Source: a virus. From it: DNA of 64,000 bases. Position numbers and translations under genes: made by a program. The DNA is taken from positions 1 through 64,000 of the IMG/VR virus record IMGVR_UViG_3300046747_000672; one strand, 5' to 3'. Position 1 is the first letter of the stretch. Each line of letters starts with the position of its first letter. Positions 6,884 to 27,799 of this stretch are shown here, piece after piece. The notes beneath the pieces are model-generated. The model saw only the letters and a program-made list of their open reading frames with translations, was not told the origin of the DNA and did not search any database.

Positions 6884-7834
6884 ATGACGATTCAGAAGAT
6901 GCGCGTCTCGCCGTACGGCGTGAACGATGAGCTCTTGTCCGTGGAGGTCAACCTCCTGAACGACCAGATGCCGGCGTTCGTCGATGGCGAGGATGGCGGT
7001 CTCTACGAGCCGACGACGCCCATCGCCATCGGCGGCAACGGCCTCACGTGCACAACGTTCTTCAGTACGTCAGCCGCGTGCAGCACGTTGCTCGACGGCA
7101 CAGTCGTGTTTCCGAACGGGTTCTCGTGCACGGGCACGTCGACAACGACGTTCGGCGACAACTCGGTCAGTATCGGTAGCGGTGGCGAGCTTACGGCGTA
7201 CTGCGACTCGTTTTTCAATGGCGATGTCACGTGCACGGCGGCGTCGAACGTCGCGCTCTCTGCCGGCGCTGGCGTGTTCACTTGCGGCAAGACCGCATCG
7301 TTCGGATCGACGGTGGCAATCAGCGGCGCCGTCACGTGCGGGTCGACGCTTGCTGTGGCCGGCGTCGCGACGTTCGCGGCGAAACCAGTGTTCTCGGATG
7401 GCCTAACGGTTGGCGCTGGCACTCACACCGTCGATTTCAACAATTCTACGACGAACATCGGCGGCACGCTGAATCTGTCCGCGATTGTGCGGCTCATCAG
7501 TTCGGCCCGTATCCAATACAGATATGTTGCCGGCGTCAACGCGAATCACACCTACACGATCGCAGACTGCGACATGATCGTGGTTCCGCCGAGCGGCTCG
7601 ACGACGACGCGCATCTACACCATCAGCAACACCGGGTGCTCCGGCGGCGAAGTGATCGAGATCTTCAACGGCAACTTTCCGACGCAGAGATTCTCGATCG
7701 TGCAGCATGACGGTGGCACCGCGATCGCCGACCTTGACGGCACGCTCGACTTCATTGGCGTCAAAATCGTGAATGACGGCAGCGGCAACGCAACAAGCGC
7801 GTGGAAGGTCGTTAGTGCGACGTCGGCGCCGTGA
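6884..7834 (+). CDS. Tail fibre-like protein with beta-helix style repeats
   Basis: 316 residues. After a 50-residue N-terminal domain (MRVSPYGVNDELLSVEVNLL) come short imperfect repeats rich in Thr, Ser, Gly and Cys, such as SGAVTCGSTLAVAGVATFAA and VTCTAASNVALSAGAGVFTCG, typical of trimeric beta-helix shafts. The C-terminal ~110 residues form a globular tip-like domain beginning near YRYVAGVNANHTYTIADCDM. The recurring TC pairs are unusual and may give covalent or metal cross-links. Likely a short fibre or decoration protein. Family not recognised. Confidence 0.68.
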   Translation: MTIQKMRVSPYGVNDELLSVEVNLLNDQMPAFVDGEDGGLYEPTTPIAIGGNGLTCTTFFSTSAACSTLLDGTVVFPNGFSCTGTSTTTFGDNSVSIGSGGELTAYCDSFFNGDVTCTAASNVALSAGAGVFTCGKTASFGSTVAISGAVTCGSTLAVAGVATFAAKPVFSDGLTVGAGTHTVDFNNSTTNIGGTLNLSAIVRLISSARIQYRYVAGVNANHTYTIADCDMIVVPPSGSTTTRIYTISNTGCSGGEVIEIFNGNFPTQRFSIVQHDGGTAIADLDGTLDFIGVKIVNDGSGNATSAWKVVSATSAP

Positions 7835-22631: not shown

Positions 22632-22659
22632 AAAATCACAGTCCCGTACTGCGATTTTT
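22632..22659. terminator. Probable bidirectional terminator at the convergent junction; insertion target of the transposon
   Basis: AAAATCACAGT, loop CCCGT, ACTGCGATTTT plus a T: a 10-of-11 bp stem flanked by A-run and T-run, usable from both sides. The single mismatch is A-C in plus-strand RNA but G-U in minus-strand RNA. The transposon begins at the next base, and the last eight bases of this hairpin (CGATTTTT) are its duplicated target. The 22,512-22,631 stretch between the two terminators holds no gene that I can support. Confidence 0.6.
22652..22659 (+). repeat. Left target-site duplication (8 bp)
   Basis: CGATTTTT directly touching the left inverted repeat. The same eight bases follow the right end; the ninth base differs on both sides, so the duplication is exactly 8 bp. 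Confidence 0.8.
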
Positions 22660-22679
22660 GGTGCTGTCCTAATTTGCCC
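22660..22679 (+). repeat. Left terminal inverted repeat of the transposon
   Basis: GGTGCTGTCCTAATTTGCCC, identical to the reverse complement of 27,772-27,791. Similarity stops after base 20 on the inner side. Confidence 0.88.
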
Positions 22680-22745
22680 AGCCTCGTGGCGGTCGGCCCC
22701 CGCTGCCCGTGACGTCGCGACGGAGCGTGGCTAGGCTTCGGTGCA

Positions 22746-23075
22746 ATGGTGCCGACCAAGATGAGCGGGACGACCCGATGGATCGAGTTCAACCCTGAAG
22801 CCTCCAAGGCCTTCGACGTTGTCGACGCCATCGTCTCAGACGAGCGGATCGCGTTCGATGCGAAGGACGGGCAGTACCAGTACGTCGTGAAGCTGGCGCC
22901 TGCTCCTGGGGAGCCCGTTCGGTGGACTGGCGACTGGGTCGGCAAACTACCCACCGACGGCGGCGGCCTGGTCGATGTCCGCCGCTACGACTCGAAGGAA
23001 GGCGGCGTGGCGCTGGTCGGCGTTTGGAAGGATGGCGAGAACGTGGTGGACTGGATCACGGAGCTCCGGCCGTAG
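22746..23075 (+). CDS. Transposon cargo protein, unknown
   Basis: 109 residues, first gene inside the left end. WIEFNPEASKAFDVVDAIVS, AFDAKDGQYQYVVKLAPAPG and VWKDGENVVDWITELRP show a compact alpha/beta protein without catalytic motif. A Met five codons in is an alternative start. The stop is directly followed by the ATG of the next gene, so the two are probably co-translated. Confidence 0.6.
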   Translation: MVPTKMSGTTRWIEFNPEASKAFDVVDAIVSDERIAFDAKDGQYQYVVKLAPAPGEPVRWTGDWVGKLPTDGGGLVDVRRYDSKEGGVALVGVWKDGENVVDWITELRP

Positions 23076-23399
23076 ATGGGCAAGCACGACAACGTGCAGG
23101 ACGACGTCTCGGTCGAAGAGCTCCAGCGCGCGGTGGAACACTTGCACGGCTGCACCGCGACGTTCGTCGAAGCCGTCGAGGTCCGCGAGGAGCACGGCGG
23201 TAAGGTCATCTGGGAGGGCGCGGTGAAGATCTTCGACCTCGTCGGCCACCCGAAAGCGAAGCGCGCATATGCTTGGTCGTACGCGACGACAGGCACCAAG
23301 CGACGCTTCGTCGCGGTGCTCGGGTTGCCGCCCGTGGACTCGGCCGTGATGGCCGTCAGGGCGACGATCTTGGCGGACGAGAAGGCAAGTCGAGGCTGA
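23076..23399 (+). CDS. Transposon cargo protein, unknown
   Basis: 107 residues immediately after the preceding stop. ELQRAVEHLHGCTATFVEAV then VIWEGAVKIFDLVGHPKAKR and a FVAVLGLPPVDSAVMAVRA end suggest a small alpha/beta fold. No known family recognised. After its stop the DNA turns to the opposite-strand tRNA-like pair. Confidence 0.6.
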   Translation: MGKHDNVQDDVSVEELQRAVEHLHGCTATFVEAVEVREEHGGKVIWEGAVKIFDLVGHPKAKRAYAWSYATTGTKRRFVAVLGLPPVDSAVMAVRATILADEKASRG

Positions 23400-23449
23400 T
23401 CGCGCGATTTAGTCCTAGAACTAAACGGCATTTCGCTTCATGCTGGACA

Positions 23450-23537
23450 GCGGAAGGTGGTGGAATCGAACCACCGGGCGCGCGAACGCCCGCCAGGGCA
23501 TGTAGAGGACCCAGTTTTTCGCCGTTTCGGGCACCTT
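23450..23537 (-). tRNA. tRNA-like gene 1 (class II, anticodon uncertain)
   Basis: Read on the minus strand: acceptor GGAAGGT pairs perfectly with ACCTTCC. A perfect T-arm follows the family rule (GGTGG TTCGATT CCACC). Just before it is a long variable arm, GGGCG with CGCCC around a 6-nt loop, as in Leu/Ser/Tyr-type tRNAs. Total 88 nt, no encoded CCA. The D and anticodon arms are ambiguous because one GGG run can pair with either side. The best anticodon loop is CTCTACA, which would read CTA (amber), but position 37 is C and the stem has a mismatch. It could be a diverged phage-type tRNA, a pseudogene or a tRNA mimic. Confidence 0.45.
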
Positions 23538-23542
23538 CCTGG

Positions 23543-23639
23543 TCGGCACGGTACGAGTCGAACGTCGCAGGTGGCAGCCTGCGTCCCCTTCGGATGCGTG
23601 TCGTGCATCCCGCCAACCGAGGCAGGCAGGGGAACCGTG
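23543..23639 (-). tRNA. tRNA-like gene 2 (class II, degenerate)
   Basis: Five bases upstream of the first copy. On the minus strand GGCACGG pairs with CCGTGCC. Inside are a CCTGCC/GGCGGG hairpin (D-like), a perfect GGATGC/GCATCC hairpin with the 7-nt loop ACGACAC (anticodon-like), a CGCAGG/CCTGCG long variable arm, and a short T-arm (ACG TTCGACT CGT). The T-stem has only three good pairs and U33 is missing, so charging as a normal tRNA is doubtful. The five-hairpin layout is still clearly tRNA-shaped. 97 nt. Confidence 0.4.
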
Positions 23640-23648
23640 CCAGAATCG

Positions 23649-24452
23649 CTAGTTCTTCACCTCCTCGGCGTCATCGATCTGGGTCTCCAAGAAGGCGTTC
23701 ATGCGCTTCACGTCGGCCGCGGTGAAGTCGGGCGGGAGTGGAATGTCGATCACGCGTCCCCGCGATAGCTTGCACTTGTAGACAATGAAGTCCGCCGGAA
23801 CGTGAAGCGTCTGCGTCCCGGCTGGCGCGGCGGGCGATTTCGGCGTGTCCGCACTATTCTCCTTCGCGACCGCGGGCGCGGCATCGAGACTGATCTGCCC
23901 CGATGGCGTCAGCAGCTCTGCCGTCTTCAGCGAATCAAGGAATGCGTCTGCGGCCATCAGGGCCATCGACTCCACAATACCGTGGTCGGTGTAGAGAAGG
24001 TTCCTGAGCCCCTCCCTCGTCGGAGCAGGGTGTCCACTGAATTGTTCGAGGAGCTTCGTGTACAACTCGGTGGTCCGCATCGCGGCGATCTTCGCGGCGC
24101 GCCCAGCCTCCGGCGTCAGAGGGTTCGTGACACGAAGGGCGAGGTCCGTCACCTTGAGGCGTCCGCTTTCGCCGCGCCCGACGCGTTCGATCAGGCCGTA
24201 CAGCATCGCGCTCGGCACCCCGTACGCCCACCGACGGTCCGTGTTCTTCGCGATCCCCAGCTCCCTCATTATCGCGTCGCTCGATGCCTCCTTGCCTCCG
24301 ACGCGCCGAACGGCCTGCACCATCTCGATCGCCTGCCCGATGCCGTAGTACGGGTACTTCGTTTCGCTTCGAGCTTTGCCATCTCCCGAAGCCACGTTTT
24401 CTGGTCGCTGCGAATCCGACCCGTTTCCCCCCGCTGCATTCTGGTCGACCAT
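23649..24452 (-). CDS. DUF5343-like protein, transposon cargo
   Basis: 267 residues. YPYYGIGQAIEMVQAVRRVG, AMLYGLIERVGRGESGRLKV, AAMRTTELYTKLLEQFSGHP and IVESMALMAADAFLDSLKTA resemble DUF5343, an all-helical winged-helix-like family often found in mobile elements. A Pro/Ala linker leads to a C-terminal domain (FIVYKCKLSRGRVIDIPLPP) that may be a substrate- or nucleic-acid-binding beta module. The tRNA-like genes follow nine bases after its stop on the same strand and could be co-transcribed. Confidence 0.6.
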   Translation of the reverse strand: MVDQNAAGGNGSDSQRPENVASGDGKARSETKYPYYGIGQAIEMVQAVRRVGGKEASSDAIMRELGIAKNTDRRWAYGVPSAMLYGLIERVGRGESGRLKVTDLALRVTNPLTPEAGRAAKIAAMRTTELYTKLLEQFSGHPAPTREGLRNLLYTDHGIVESMALMAADAFLDSLKTAELLTPSGQISLDAAPAVAKENSADTPKSPAAPAGTQTLHVPADFIVYKCKLSRGRVIDIPLPPDFTAADVKRMNAFLETQIDDAEEVKN

Positions 24453-24623
24453 GACGTTGAACCTCGTGTCCAGAATCTATCCGAACCTAACCGGCGACGT
24501 CAGTAGATTTGATATTTTCGTTAGGCGTGGCGTTAGATTGTCAGCCGAACCGGTCAGAATAAAATAAGTTTTGATCTGATAAACTGCCGTACTAATTCAT
24601 ATTTTTGTTCTAGACTCCGGTGC
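24453..24623. promoter_or_regulatory. AT-rich divergent promoter region
   Basis: 171 bp between divergent genes. Around 24,540-24,615 the DNA is far more AT-rich than its surroundings (for example AATAAAATAAG and TAATTCATATTTTTGTT). A likely promoter zone for the DUF5343-like gene and the small gene at 24,624. No exact -35/-10 pair is claimed. Confidence 0.4.
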
Positions 24624-24851
24624 ATGTCGTCGAGGTCAATCGCCAGAGTCGTTGGGCTGTCTGAGTTGATGGAGTCATTCGACGGGATGGCAAGAAGCGT
24701 GTTCGGGATGTCTGGATCCGAATTCGAGATGGCTTATTACGCTGGAATCATTGCTGATTCTGGTGAATTACGGGACCTCGCCTCTGTGCTATCGCTCATC
24801 GAGCGACTCCGTGAGCGAGATAAGATCGTCAGGATTGGACGACCTCTTTGA
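24624..24851 (+). CDS. Small protein of the transposon, unknown
   Basis: 75 residues (LSELMESFDGMARSVFGMSG; LRDLASVLSLIERLRERDKI). Mostly helical, no Shine-Dalgarno, possibly leaderless from the AT-rich region. Its codon use is less GC-rich than neighbours. It could be a regulator of the element, but that is a guess. Confidence 0.45.
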   Translation: MSSRSIARVVGLSELMESFDGMARSVFGMSGSEFEMAYYAGIIADSGELRDLASVLSLIERLRERDKIVRIGRPL

Positions 24852-24866
24852 TTCCGACAGACTCAC

Positions 24867-25067
24867 CTATGAATCGGTCGCTGCCGCGACAACCTTTCGG
24901 ATCCAGTCCGAAAGAGCGAGCCCAGACTTCTCGGCCGCCGTCTCGGCCGCGTCCCGCTCCGCCTGCGTCCACCGCAACGTGAGCGCCGCCGCCTTTCGCT
25001 CCTCTGGCGCCTTGGGCGGCCTCCCCATCCTCTTCTTCGGTGTCTTGCTCGCTTTGCGTTGGCTCAC
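24867..25067 (-). CDS. Ribbon-helix-helix-like protein
   Basis: 66 residues. The GTG start overlaps the transposase stop (GTGA). A basic N-terminus (KRMGRPPKAPEERKAAAL) is followed by LRWTQAERDAAETAAEKSGL and ALSDWIRKVV, the strand-helix-helix pattern of RHH regulators. Translation coupled to the transposase suggests control of the element or assistance to the transposase. Confidence 0.65.
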   Translation of the reverse strand: MSQRKASKTPKKRMGRPPKAPEERKAAALTLRWTQAERDAAETAAEKSGLALSDWIRKVVAAATDS

Positions 25068-25906
25068 GATCGCCCCACATTCATGGCCGCGTCGAGCAGG
25101 TCGTCTATCGACCACAGCGTCGCTGTGATACCTGCGGCCATCGCTGGCGTCGTGCGAAGCGTCGTGTGCCGTCGCACGAAGTTATAGAAACCGAAGTGAA
25201 GCGCGGTCGCCGCAACGTGGTTCTCGAACTTCTTCGAGTGCGCGTTGGTGAGGCGTGTGTACCGGCGAACGCCCATGCGCACCGTGAGGTTCTGGCGCTC
25301 GACGTAGGACGTCGAAACGAGCTCGGCGACGGGCTCGCCAAAGATCGGCGTCTTCTCCGTGCCCGTGACCTTGGGCGGCGAGTACCTACCAGGACCGGTG
25401 GCTTCGGCCTCGTACGATTTTACGAGCGTCGCGTAGTCGACGCCTTTATCTGCGAAGGCACCGCGGATCGCCTCGACGTACGTGCGGAGTCCGTCCGTCG
25501 TGACCTGCACGCGGTAGCGAAGACGCGAGGCGAGGTCCGCCACGAACGCATCGGTATGCGCTGCGTCGCGTTTCCCAACGAGGAACGATGGGACGAGCTT
25601 CGTTTCCGCGTCGAGCGCGACGAAGGTCCACGTGTCGCCGATGCGGGAGGAATCATCTTCCGGAAGGACGTGACGTTGCTTCTTGCCGACGAACGCCCAG
25701 AGCTCGTCCAGCTCCAGCCGCTCGCAAGCAAGGTCGCGCATCGTCGCGTTGAGCAGGTCAGCGCAGCCGTTCCCGACACGGACCATGAGGCGAAGGATCG
25801 TGTCCCGATGCACGCTAGTCATCCGCTCGATCGAGCGGGCGGAGTTCCCCTCCACGAGGGCCGAGAGGATCGCGATCTGCTTCTCACGGGGAAGAACGTT
25901 GCTCAT
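25064..25906 (-). CDS. IS1-superfamily DDE transposase
   Basis: 280 residues from the ATG after a short AT-rich leader. An N-terminal HTH (REKQIAILSALVEGNSARSI) is followed by ELDELWAFVGKKQRHV (Asp67), a DTWTFVALDAETKLVPSFLV core, VQVTTDGLRTYVEAI (Asp138), and YVERQNLTVRMGVRRYTRLT (Glu203), with TNAHSKKFENH and a TPAMAAGI end. The Asp-Asp-Glu spacing and TDG and YVERQN blocks are those of IS1/InsB enzymes. It cuts and joins the inverted repeats that bound this element. An upstream in-frame extension is not supported by a ribosome site. Confidence 0.8.
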   Translation of the reverse strand: MSNVLPREKQIAILSALVEGNSARSIERMTSVHRDTILRLMVRVGNGCADLLNATMRDLACERLELDELWAFVGKKQRHVLPEDDSSRIGDTWTFVALDAETKLVPSFLVGKRDAAHTDAFVADLASRLRYRVQVTTDGLRTYVEAIRGAFADKGVDYATLVKSYEAEATGPGRYSPPKVTGTEKTPIFGEPVAELVSTSYVERQNLTVRMGVRRYTRLTNAHSKKFENHVAATALHFGFYNFVRRHTTLRTTPAMAAGITATLWSIDDLLDAAMNVGRS

Positions 25907-25979
25907 GATACTTATTGTATCGCATAAATGCCACGTGGCAAGAACCCCTTTTTGCGACGCAATAAATTGGCCGCCCGGT

Positions 25980-26465
25980 CTATGCCATCGGATGCGATTC
26001 CCAGTGCGCTTGCCGCGAGCGCATGCCGACGCGAAACGGCTTTGGCGACGAAGCAATCTCGTGGAGAGTTTCGGCCGGATAATGCGTGGCCGGTTTCTCG
26101 TTGGCGACCAGTAGGCGCAGCATGCGATCACATGTCACGCCAATCTCGTCGTGATCGTTTTCCCAGCGCGAAAGCGTGGCCGGGTCGATGCCCATGCGCT
26201 GAGCAAGATCTCGCCCACTCAGCCCAATAGACTTCCGCAAGAATTTGATCTCGTCCCCCGTGAATCTAGTGGGCTTCTGAATCAGAGCCATCGCGATAGA
26301 CTTGTGGAGCCCTTCAATGTTTGAGATCGCGACTTCAGTGGCGCCGCACTTTCCACAACGCCGGACGGGGACATCGCAGAGGGTCACGTAAGGGAGACCG
26401 CACTCCGCGTATTTGTAGTTCTCCGTCGTTTCCGTAAGCCTATTGCCACACTCGGTGCATTTCAT
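25980..26465 (-). CDS. MqsA-like antitoxin (zinc finger plus HTH)
   Basis: 161 residues from the ATG overlapping the toxin stop. N-terminal zinc site Cys3-x2-Cys6 and Cys37-x2-Cys40 (MKCTECGNRL; VRRCGKCGAT), then a HTH_3-type domain about residues 66-106 (FTGDEIKFLRKSIGLSGRDL; AQRMGIDPATLSRWEND). This zinc-finger-plus-Xre plan is the MqsA/YgiT type. It should bind and neutralise the neighbouring toxin and repress the pair. The C-terminal 45 residues are extra. 73 nt separates it from the downstream transposase. Confidence 0.72.
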   Translation of the reverse strand: MKCTECGNRLTETTENYKYAECGLPYVTLCDVPVRRCGKCGATEVAISNIEGLHKSIAMALIQKPTRFTGDEIKFLRKSIGLSGRDLAQRMGIDPATLSRWENDHDEIGVTCDRMLRLLVANEKPATHYPAETLHEIASSPKPFRVGMRSRQAHWESHPMA

Positions 26466-26797
26466 CGATGCTTCCTCCATGCCGTGGCGATGTACAGTTC
26501 TGTTCGGCTTCGAAAGCCAACGATCACGCACATCCTTGGAGTTTCTATGTGGTGCCTCCAGCACCCATTCTCCCATTCGGCCTCACTGACAACGCCAGCG
26601 CGCAAAATGTTCGTCACGTCCACCATGGATAGATTGTCCTTCTCCATCTCCCTCAATGCGTGCCCCTTCGGGGGCACGACGAATCCTCCAGAAAGGATGG
26701 CAGTGATGACCTCCTTCGCCTCCCTTGCCTTAAGCGGTTCGAGCAGTTCTACGTCATCTCCGTCTTGATCTTTAGTCAACGCTTGTCCTCCGGTCAA
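26462..26797 (-). CDS. DUF4258-type toxin
   Basis: 111 residues, toxin-first order, overlapping the antitoxin by four bases. VVPPKGHALREMEKDNLSMV then WENGCWRHHIETPRMCVIVG and a TELYIATAWRK end fit DUF4258, a RelE/MqsR-like small RNase group partnered with zinc-finger antitoxins. The catalytic residue cannot be fixed from sequence; His and Arg in the middle block are candidates. It probably stabilises the element by addiction. Confidence 0.68.
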   Translation of the reverse strand: MTGGQALTKDQDGDDVELLEPLKAREAKEVITAILSGGFVVPPKGHALREMEKDNLSMVDVTNILRAGVVSEAEWENGCWRHHIETPRMCVIVGFRSRTELYIATAWRKHR

Positions 26798-26841
26798 GGC
26801 CTAGACCAACGGGTTCGTTTTCGGCAAATTGTCGAATCTAC

Positions 26842-26857
26842 TTGACCGTCAGGTCAA
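26842..26857. promoter_or_regulatory. Palindromic operator candidate upstream of the toxin-antitoxin operon
   Basis: TTGACC GTCA GGTCAA, a perfect 6+6 inverted repeat 45 bp upstream of the toxin start. A second, imperfect palindrome with the same GGTC...GACC arms (GGTCAAGGCCTAGACC) lies at 26,792-26,807 across the start codon. MqsA proteins bind palindromes, so these are plausible autoregulation sites. Confidence 0.5.
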
Positions 26858-26904
26858 CTGCCTAGCTCGACTTCGCTGGGCATAAATACGCCGCAGCGCA
26901 TCGC

Positions 26905-27225
26905 TCACCGACTCCCGCAGAACGGGCACGGCTGCGGCCCGGGCCACCTGCCGGCTAGGATCTGTTCGACGGGCGCCCAAGCGATCCTCGCCACGCAGAG
27001 CGCCATGCCAGGGCTCACCCGATGCTTCGCTTCGGTCGAGTGTCGCAGCGTGCGCAGTCCGACCCCCATCAGTTCGGCCACCCGCTTGCGCCCGTAGCGA
27101 GCTCGCAGCTTGCGGATCGCGGCCTTCACGTTCACCTGCTCGGCTGCCGTGAGTTGCCACGACCGCTTCGGTGGCGCGCCAGGCGCACGCCGCGACCAAG
27201 CCTGCTTCTCCCGAAGGATCGTCAT
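26905..27225 (-). CDS. HTH regulator-like protein with C-terminal CPFC
   Basis: 106 residues. SWQLTAAEQVNVKAAIRKLR and ARYGRKRVAELMGVGLRTLR read as a helix-turn-helix about residues 25-62. The end GPQPCPFCGSR is a half zinc knuckle. Last of three genes on this strand at the right end of the transposon; 18 nt after the previous stop. Likely a transcription regulator of the element. Confidence 0.6.
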   Translation of the reverse strand: MTILREKQAWSRRAPGAPPKRSWQLTAAEQVNVKAAIRKLRARYGRKRVAELMGVGLRTLRHSTEAKHRVSPGMALCVARIAWAPVEQILAGRWPGPQPCPFCGSR

Positions 27226-27243
27226 GCGTCCGCGCGCCTCGCG

Positions 27244-27441
27244 TCAACGCGCGGAATGGCAAAAGCGCACGACGGCGCGCACTCGGCTGTCCTCCGCCTG
27301 CACGCGAAGCGCTTCCAGCACGATGTAGAGCGCCGCCGCGTGGCAGTTGCCAGCGGACGCATGCAGGCGGCTCGCGTCGCAGAGCTCGGCGAGCATCCTG
27401 TAGAGCTCGATGCCGATGGCCGGTGGCCTCGGTCGCTTCAC
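27244..27441 (-). CDS. Transposon cargo microprotein, unknown
   Basis: 65 residues from a GTG sharing GTGA with the stop of the upstream gene. IELYRMLAELCDASRLHASA then AAALYIVLEALRVQAEDSRV indicates a helical bundle. Function unknown; coupling argues it is real. Confidence 0.6.
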   Translation of the reverse strand: MKRPRPPAIGIELYRMLAELCDASRLHASAGNCHAAALYIVLEALRVQAEDSRVRAVVRFCHSAR

Positions 27442-27656
27442 GAACGCCCCCTCCTGCCCAGCCTCGCCGCGGTGGCCAGCCAAACGGCGTCGACCGCCTC
27501 TGCGTGCGCCTTCCAGGCAGCTTCGATGGCGACCATCAGCAGACGGAACGCATGGCGCTCGGCGGCCTTCAGTGCCGCGAGTTCGGCCATGGCTTCGTCT
27601 GCGACGTCGCGCCGGTTGCGCCCCTTCGGGCGGACTCGTACCTTCCCGTCGTTCAT
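27438..27656 (-). CDS. Transposon cargo protein, unknown
   Basis: 72 residues, GGAGG 9 nt before ATG. Basic N-terminus (KVRVRPKGRNRRDVADEA) and a long amphipathic helix (ELAALKAAERHAFRLLMVAI). Could bind nucleic acid. It opens the three-gene operon at the right end. Confidence 0.62.
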   Translation of the reverse strand: MNDGKVRVRPKGRNRRDVADEAMAELAALKAAERHAFRLLMVAIEAAWKAHAEAVDAVWLATAARLGRRGRS

Positions 27657-27682
27657 CGGACTTACCTCCGGTGGACTGGGCT

Positions 27683-27703
27683 CCGAGCGTCTCTAGCGCT
27701 CGG
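27683..27703 (-). promoter_or_regulatory. Hairpin in the leader of the right-end operon
   Basis: CCGAGCG and CGCTCGG around a 7-nt loop, 27 nt upstream of the first start codon. It may be an operator or attenuator. The DNA between it and the transposon end (27,704-27,771) holds no gene. Confidence 0.35.
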
Positions 27704-27771
27704 GGCCCGCTTGGTTTCTGCCGGAGGGGTAGCAGTCGGAGCGGAGCGACGGGTGGGGAAAGGTGGCGGAC

Positions 27772-27791
27772 GGGCAAATTAGGACAGCACC
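27772..27791 (-). repeat. Right terminal inverted repeat of the transposon
   Basis: Reverse complement of the left end, 20 of 20 identical. With the flanking duplications it defines the element. Confidence 0.88.
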
Positions 27792-27799
27792 CGATTTTT
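27792..27799 (+). repeat. Right target-site duplication (8 bp)
   Basis: CGATTTTT directly after the right inverted repeat, matching 22,652-22,659. Confidence 0.8.

Follow-up and report, generated by a model that had tools for sequence, protein, structure and literature searches.

What are the two tRNA-like genes at positions 23451–23642 on the minus strand of this viral DNA, what carries them, and what might they do? The window, that is, the whole stretch of 64,000 nucleotides analysed here, is part of a virus record of 113,762 bases. The initial annotation had described two tandem class-II tRNA-like genes carried as transposon cargo, and had named suppressor tRNAs, decoys for tRNA-cleaving nucleases and tRNA mimics as possible roles. 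That they are tRNA genes and that they are transposon cargo is well supported by the results below. The best reading of them, to which we assign a probability of roughly 0.6, is that they are stop-codon-reading allo-tRNAs, a known but poorly understood kind of tRNA, travelling as cargo of a lineage of IS1-type transposons.

The element in question spans positions 22660–27791 (5,132 bp). Its terminal inverted repeats (IRs), GGTGCTGTCCTAATTTGCCC at 22660–22679 on the plus strand and its counterpart at 27772–27791 on the minus strand, are complementary at 20/20 positions, and they are flanked by an 8-bp target site duplication (TSD), CGATTTTT, at 22652–22659 and again at 27792–27799. The DDE transposase (25064–25906, minus strand) matches Pfam DDE_Tnp_IS1 (PF03400) with 27.3 bits, above the cut-off of 24.1. 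Against NCBIfam transpos_IS1 it scores 61.3 bits (E = 1e-16), which is below the equivalog cut-off of 100, and it is therefore called IS1-type here and not IS1 proper. Two backbone genes of the transposon group encode a 107-aa protein (23076–23399, plus strand; tblastn relatives in loci L013, L003, L015, L062, L065 and L052) and, near the right IR, a 106-aa protein (26905–27225, minus strand; relatives in L013, L007, L003, L015, L014 and L052). Both families recur across the group and have no Pfam match above the cut-off. Homologues in L013 were also found for a 75-aa protein (24624–24851, plus strand; tblastx/tblastn) and for a ribbon-helix-helix (RHH) small protein (24867–25031, minus strand; Pfam NikA-like, 3e-6). 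Variable cargo is represented by a 109-aa ORF (22746–23075, plus strand; from the ORF list, with stop and frame checked) and by an MqsA-type antitoxin (25980–26576, minus strand; NCBIfam TIGR03830, 75 bits), next to which lies a DUF4258-like protein (26462–26797, minus strand; Pfam E = 7e-4, under the cut-off), a putative partner toxin. At 23073–23078 the TAG of the 109-aa ORF abuts the in-frame ATG of the 107-aa ORF; the tRNA of the window has a CUA anticodon.

Reading along the minus strand, a gene for a 267-aa protein with a tandem winged-helix-like architecture (23649–24452) ends at 23649, gene A starts 6 nt later at 23642, and gene B follows from 23539 to 23451. The predicted structure of the 267-aa protein has modest confidence (mean pLDDT 61), and a comparison of the model with the PDB gave winged-helix proteins as top matches, none of them significant (E = 0.025 at best). 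No relatives of this gene were found in virus contigs and plasmids. A related element encodes a 292-aa protein (L014:7810-8688) that shares with it only the C-terminal motif TQTLxVPADFxxYKCK, and no tRNA was found near it.

Both tRNA genes have a T-loop of the TTCGA type and a V-arm hairpin, as annotated initially. Gene B runs from 23539 to 23452, with G73 at 23451. Its acceptor strands, GGAAGGTG and CACCTTCC, form 8 bp, and its T arm, GTGG-TTCGATT-CCAC, has a 4-bp stem. The anticodon loop is CTCTACA, with U33, the CUA anticodon that had been pointed out for one of the genes, and C37. The D arm is irregular, and the anticodon stem, which keeps four of six pairs, ends in a C-U mismatch on the loop side. 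Gene A, the one correctly said to lack U33, runs from 23642 to 23544 and, with its tail, to 23540. Its acceptor strands, UGGCACGGU and ACCGUGCCG, form 9 bp, starting with a U-G pair; the T arm, ACG-TTCGACT-CGT, has a 3-bp stem, the V arm (CGCAGG/CCUGCG) has 6 bp, and the anticodon stem (GGATGC/GCATCC) also has 6 bp. The loop is ACGACAC, with C33 and the anticodon GAC, so that a stop anticodon is absent from gene A. An additional CCCC/GGGG helix encloses its D and anticodon arms. Two points of the initial description have to be revised. The 7-bp acceptor stems do pair, but they are really parts of 12-bp acceptor/T branches, divided 8/4 in gene B and 9/3 in gene A. Similarly, the five letters GACCA between the genes were correct but do not separate them: they are base 72, A73 and the encoded CCA of gene A, and they abut G1 of gene B.

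It is important to point out that the standard tools, ARAGORN and Rfam at gathering level, detect neither of these genes, and by this measure neither is a canonical tRNA. With Rfam in sensitive mode, gene B matches tRNA-Sec (RF01852) with 26 bits (E = 0.006), below the gathering threshold of 47. A match to the BTH_s1 sRNA (20.7 bits against a threshold of 74) was taken as chance. Also found in the window was a 98-nt ARAGORN call of tRNA-Gln(CUG) at 7224–7321, which has no Rfam support at gathering level and is probably spurious. The folding energy of gene B is weak (z = −1.8) and that of gene A is better (z = −2.69). For gene A no sequence homologue was found, and it was identified by this fold and by a geometric scan. 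Over 72 transposase loci, the scan returned 9 long tRNA-like branches versus 1 in reversed sequence; a short-form scan gave 22 matches versus 4 in reversed and 2–10 in shuffled sequence, and weak members of the set may therefore be chance.

The RNA of gene B is conserved. A covariance model built from two Myxococcales MAG copies, with the window left out, finds gene B as its sole match in the 64 kb, at 54.4 bits (E = 1e-13, a rough value since the calibration was short). Three sequences were aligned over 25 pairs: pairing is kept in 93% of the cells, and in six of the pairs both sides have changed, compared to 2.2 expected by shuffling and 0–1 in slid controls. This is the opposite of the broken or non-covarying stems that the initial annotation had named as telling against the genes. 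One of the double changes is at the eighth acceptor pair, which is G-C in gene B and A-U in the relatives, and this favours 8/4 over 7/5 for the branch. Chance hairpins were accordingly rejected as the source of gene B, on the grounds of its homologues, the covariation and the leave-one-out model. The best canonical match to the gene B model is a Myxococcota tRNA-Tyr(GUA), and over the T arm and acceptor, which make up its final 24 nt, gene B differs at one position from the tRNA-Tyr of L097. At the DNA level, a similarity search of phage and plasmid collections gave short T-arm matches only, and a search of virus contigs with the T-arm pattern gave no match.

The pair was also sought in related elements. 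Relatives of the 267-aa protein, 48–52% identical to it, are present in two Myxococcales MAGs (L007, L013 and L008). In the MAG from a fen, two tRNA genes in tandem come after the corresponding gene, each with a UUA (ochre) anticodon, and the module of winged-helix gene, two tandem tRNAs, RHH gene and IS1-type transposase occurs there in two copies. The first tRNA of L007 is a normal-looking, canonical class II tRNA (Rfam tRNA, 61.7 bits, threshold 29), while the second one aligns with gene B of the window. The second copy (L013) is 79% identical, and its contig carries a complete transposon of 6,033 bp with the TSD AGGCGTTT, six of whose protein genes have counterparts in the window element. 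A 6-bp anticodon stem is found in gene A and in the second tRNAs of L007 and L013. The Leu-type partner tRNA shows two double-sided changes, a number that shuffles do not discriminate with two sequences only. The third relative, L008, has the 267-aa-type protein and no such tRNA pair.

We now turn our attention to the wider transposon group. A search for IS1-type transposases in virus contigs and 379 Myxococcota genomes yielded the 72 distinct loci, 25 of which, the window included, are delimited by terminal IRs and a TSD of 8–9 bp. tRNA-like genes lie in or beside 20 of the 70 transposases in the tree, and all 20 rows fall within one half of it (39 rows). The tree implies 9 gains or losses of tRNA, 8 of them forced by supported branches, versus 17.7 with shuffled labels, and none of 500 shuffles did as well. 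The transposases nearest to that of the window (L060/L015, L003 and L125) have no detected tRNAs, which indicates that tRNA cargo is often gained or lost. On one virus contig (L062), a complete element of 6.3 kb, flanked by the 9-bp TSD CAGTTTCGG, contains a 9/3 UUA tRNA. Another 9/3 UUA tRNA, with an encoded CCA, was found in G141 (L112/L129) by the RNA model alone among the 379 genomes, and it adjoins an IS1-type transposase, an RHH gene and a 107-aa-type gene. Most other matches of the model in Myxococcota, at 30–46 bits, were set aside as probable chromosomal tRNAs (10 of the 14 loci checked are tRNA-Tyr). L017 and L032 are complete, TSD-flanked elements in which a Gln-like tRNA precedes the transposase, and tRNA-like genes were also found at L018, L039/L086, L059, L126, L131, L132, L134, L146, L149, L065, L081 and L127. 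Most of the strong members precede the transposase by 19–290 nt and share its strand. A tRNA-Ile call at L080 was left out of the count, as it has no normal T loop.

Some observations on individual elements may be recorded here. In L062, ORFs for an XRE antitoxin-like and a SecB-like chaperone protein (L062:5403-6440) directly precede the 9/3 tRNA; they share one frame and are parted by TAA-ATG only (L062:5979-5984), and the tRNA has a UUA anticodon. In the tRNA-like genes of L017, L032 and L039/L086, the 5-bp anticodon stem contains one bulged base, and the loop is 8 nt long and contains UUAC, an arrangement comparable to that of frameshift-suppressor tRNAs. The L032 element, besides its tRNA-like gene, contains a Y RNA-like (YrlA) match (L032:2779-2910; 40.4 bits, threshold 69) that resembles a permuted tRNA, and L146:140-211 matches the int-alpA RNA with 35.6 bits (threshold 35.8).

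The anticodons of these genes are strongly biased. About 18 of the 22 tRNA-like genes carry UUA or CUA, the exceptions being gene A (GAC), L081 (UAU), L146 (GUA) and L127 (a Gly-like loop); for degenerate members the anticodons were assigned by eye. The loop motif YTACA is present in 14 of the 22, where shuffling predicts 1.0 (p ≈ 2e-14); once close copies are removed, 11 of 18 have it (p ≈ 2e-11). Members had been collected through homology, ARAGORN/Rfam calls and T-arm/acceptor geometry, not by the motif. These p-values nevertheless overstate independence, since the gene B family entered via a model containing the motif, the motif had been noticed before the test and the members are related. 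The suppressor role proposed initially is thus favoured for gene B, which has an anticodon complementary to a stop codon, homologues with UUA and a UUA/CUA rule across related elements behind it; for gene A, with GAC, C33 and no homologue found, it is not supported.

Genes with this architecture have been described. Allo-tRNAs have 8/4 and 9/3 branches, an extra (fifth) loop before the D arm and occur in polycistrons of irregular tRNAs (PMC7609411), findings of Mukai et al. 2017 as given in that review. The same source mentions a suspected link to transposons or toxin-antitoxin systems, an ochre anticodon among the 9/3 members, a UAU pseudogene that overlaps with an ORF related to transposons, anticodons that are mostly sense, and some irregular allo-tRNAs that are inactive or uncharged in E. 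coli assays (PMC7609411). Genes A and B, with their 12-bp branches, long V-arm hairpins and long anticodon stem, fit this kind, class II. The remark in the initial annotation that tRNA genes in an IS1-type element were unfamiliar is hence only partly right. A search of the open-licence literature gave no report of such tRNAs as delimited IS1-type cargo, nor of the YUACA signature.

The results suggest that a transposon lineage moves its own stop-codon-reading tRNAs around, and the following course of events can be envisaged. An IS1-type transposon would have jumped into the virus, bringing genes of the allo-tRNA kind as cargo. The winged-helix gene, gene A and gene B would form one co-transcribed minus-strand unit, from which the tRNAs would probably be excised, with RNase P acting, and then CCA-tailed. 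They would probably be charged by a host synthetase insensitive to the anticodon (of Ser, Leu or Ala type). In that case UAG would be read by gene B (CUA), and UAA, plus UAG by wobble, by the UUA relatives on other elements. Since UAA is the rarest stop where hosts are GC-rich, low-level ochre suppression would be tolerated and would permit readthrough of element-borne or host messages, to the benefit of the transposon. Among the 55 long ORFs of the window the stops are TGA in 35 cases, TAG in 17 and TAA in 3, and an ochre-reading tRNA would therefore cost such a genome least.

Whether these tRNAs are charged and bring about readthrough we consider an evenly balanced question. C37 in place of A37 is poor for decoding, the irregular arms and the inactive irregular allo-tRNAs of the review likewise speak against function, and the genes common to the window and L013 have no in-frame stop needing readthrough in their coding frames. 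The TAG-ATG adjacency at 23073 and the TAA-ATG one in L062 were considered as readthrough sites and rejected, as they look like ordinary operon joints. The transposase of L132 (L132:1501-2310) has one in-frame TAG with the frame intact beyond it, and a UUA tRNA-like gene 266 nt upstream; since the transposase of L023 has a TGA and no tRNA was found there, this is not counted as evidence of readthrough. The broader claim, that elements of a broad IS1-type lineage in Myxococcota and their viruses include as a component of their own a dedicated functional stop-reading tRNA whose YUACA loop is conserved, is put forward tentatively, and we lean somewhat against it.

Other roles were also considered. 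It has been proposed that phage tRNAs counter tRNA-cleaving defences (PMC10264068), and the genes could by analogy be decoys or replacements, that is, look-alikes that absorb or survive tRNA-targeting toxins or defence nucleases. The irregular D and anticodon arms would agree with this, as would the recurrent cargo of toxin-antitoxin type (MqsA-type in the window, XRE and RelE-like ORFs in L017, antitoxin and SecB-like ORFs in L062). However, a decoy for a nuclease that attacks a sense tRNA should retain the anticodon loop of that tRNA, and what is kept instead is the stop-reading YUACA, and the tRNAs that bear it seem to differ in origin (Leu-, Gln-, Tyr- or Ser-like); this makes the decoy role unlikely. 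We regard as no more probable a regulatory tRNA mimic, in which the folds would act on the transposon's own messages, for instance as processing sites or as leaders controlling transposase synthesis. The same-strand location 19–290 nt upstream of the transposase in many elements is what such a mimic would need, hairpins flank both sides in L017, L018, L032 and L039, and the conserved C37-A38 is unnecessary for decoding. Yet position and strand vary, the window pair being 1.4 kb downstream of the transposase and the L062 gene on the opposite strand, and the encoded CCA and A73/G73 of several copies point to use as tRNA.

More improbable still is that the genes are decaying passengers, captured from host or phage and drifting without function. 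This would account for the irregular arms, for the members missed by ARAGORN, and for the many elements of the family without tRNAs together with the frequent gains and losses on the tree, but not for the compensatory changes, the anticodon loop conserved across distant elements, or the tandem pair, which is conserved downstream of a gene whose protein is about 50% identical between elements. Finally, recoded phages are known to have stop-reading tRNAs, and the virus itself might use a recoded stop codon that the tRNA serves. This we consider hardly credible: the long ORFs end normally, with the stops counted above, the standard-code coverage is 83%, and the tRNAs are part of an inserted transposon and recur in bacterial chromosomes.

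Allo-tRNAs come from metagenomes and have had no settled home or purpose. The present results give many of them an address (IS1-type transposons of a defined group, with TSDs), together with characteristic neighbouring genes and a strong signature in the anticodon, and on this footing their role can be tested. If the broader claim is true, the tRNA would be a mobile recoding device, allowing expression of the transposon or of its cargo through UAA/UAG wherever a new host is entered. If functional, suppressors would be moved by transposons between bacteria and phages, which bears on the spread of readthrough and of code changes.

It remains to compare the genes with known systems. The classical nonsense suppressors, such as supF, which is derived from tRNA-Tyr, share the CUA/UUA anticodon. 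Gene B differs from them in its 8/4 branch, irregular D arm, C37 and G73, and in being natural, mobile and conserved and not a selected mutant. Selenocysteine tRNA (RF01852), the best Rfam match of gene B, has the 8-bp acceptor and the long V arm in common with it, whereas the anticodon here is CUA/UUA and not UCA, the score is 26 bits versus 47, and no sel genes were seen in the element. As in the IS1 family and insertion sequences with passenger genes, there is an IS1-type DDE transposase, with IRs starting with GGT and TSDs of 8–9 bp; unlike in IS1, the transposase is a single ORF that stays under the NCBIfam equivalog cut-off, and it is accompanied by backbone genes (107 aa, 106/109 aa, RHH) and tRNA cargo. 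With allo-tRNAs the genes share the 12-bp 8/4 or 9/3 branch, the long V arm and anticodon stem, the extra element between acceptor and D arm, the tandem arrangement, 9/3 members with an ochre anticodon and the suspected association with transposons or toxin-antitoxin systems. What sets the present genes apart from them is that they are cargo of an IS1-type transposon delimited by IRs and TSDs, beside a winged-helix gene, in Myxococcota and virus contigs, and with a conserved YUACA anticodon loop.
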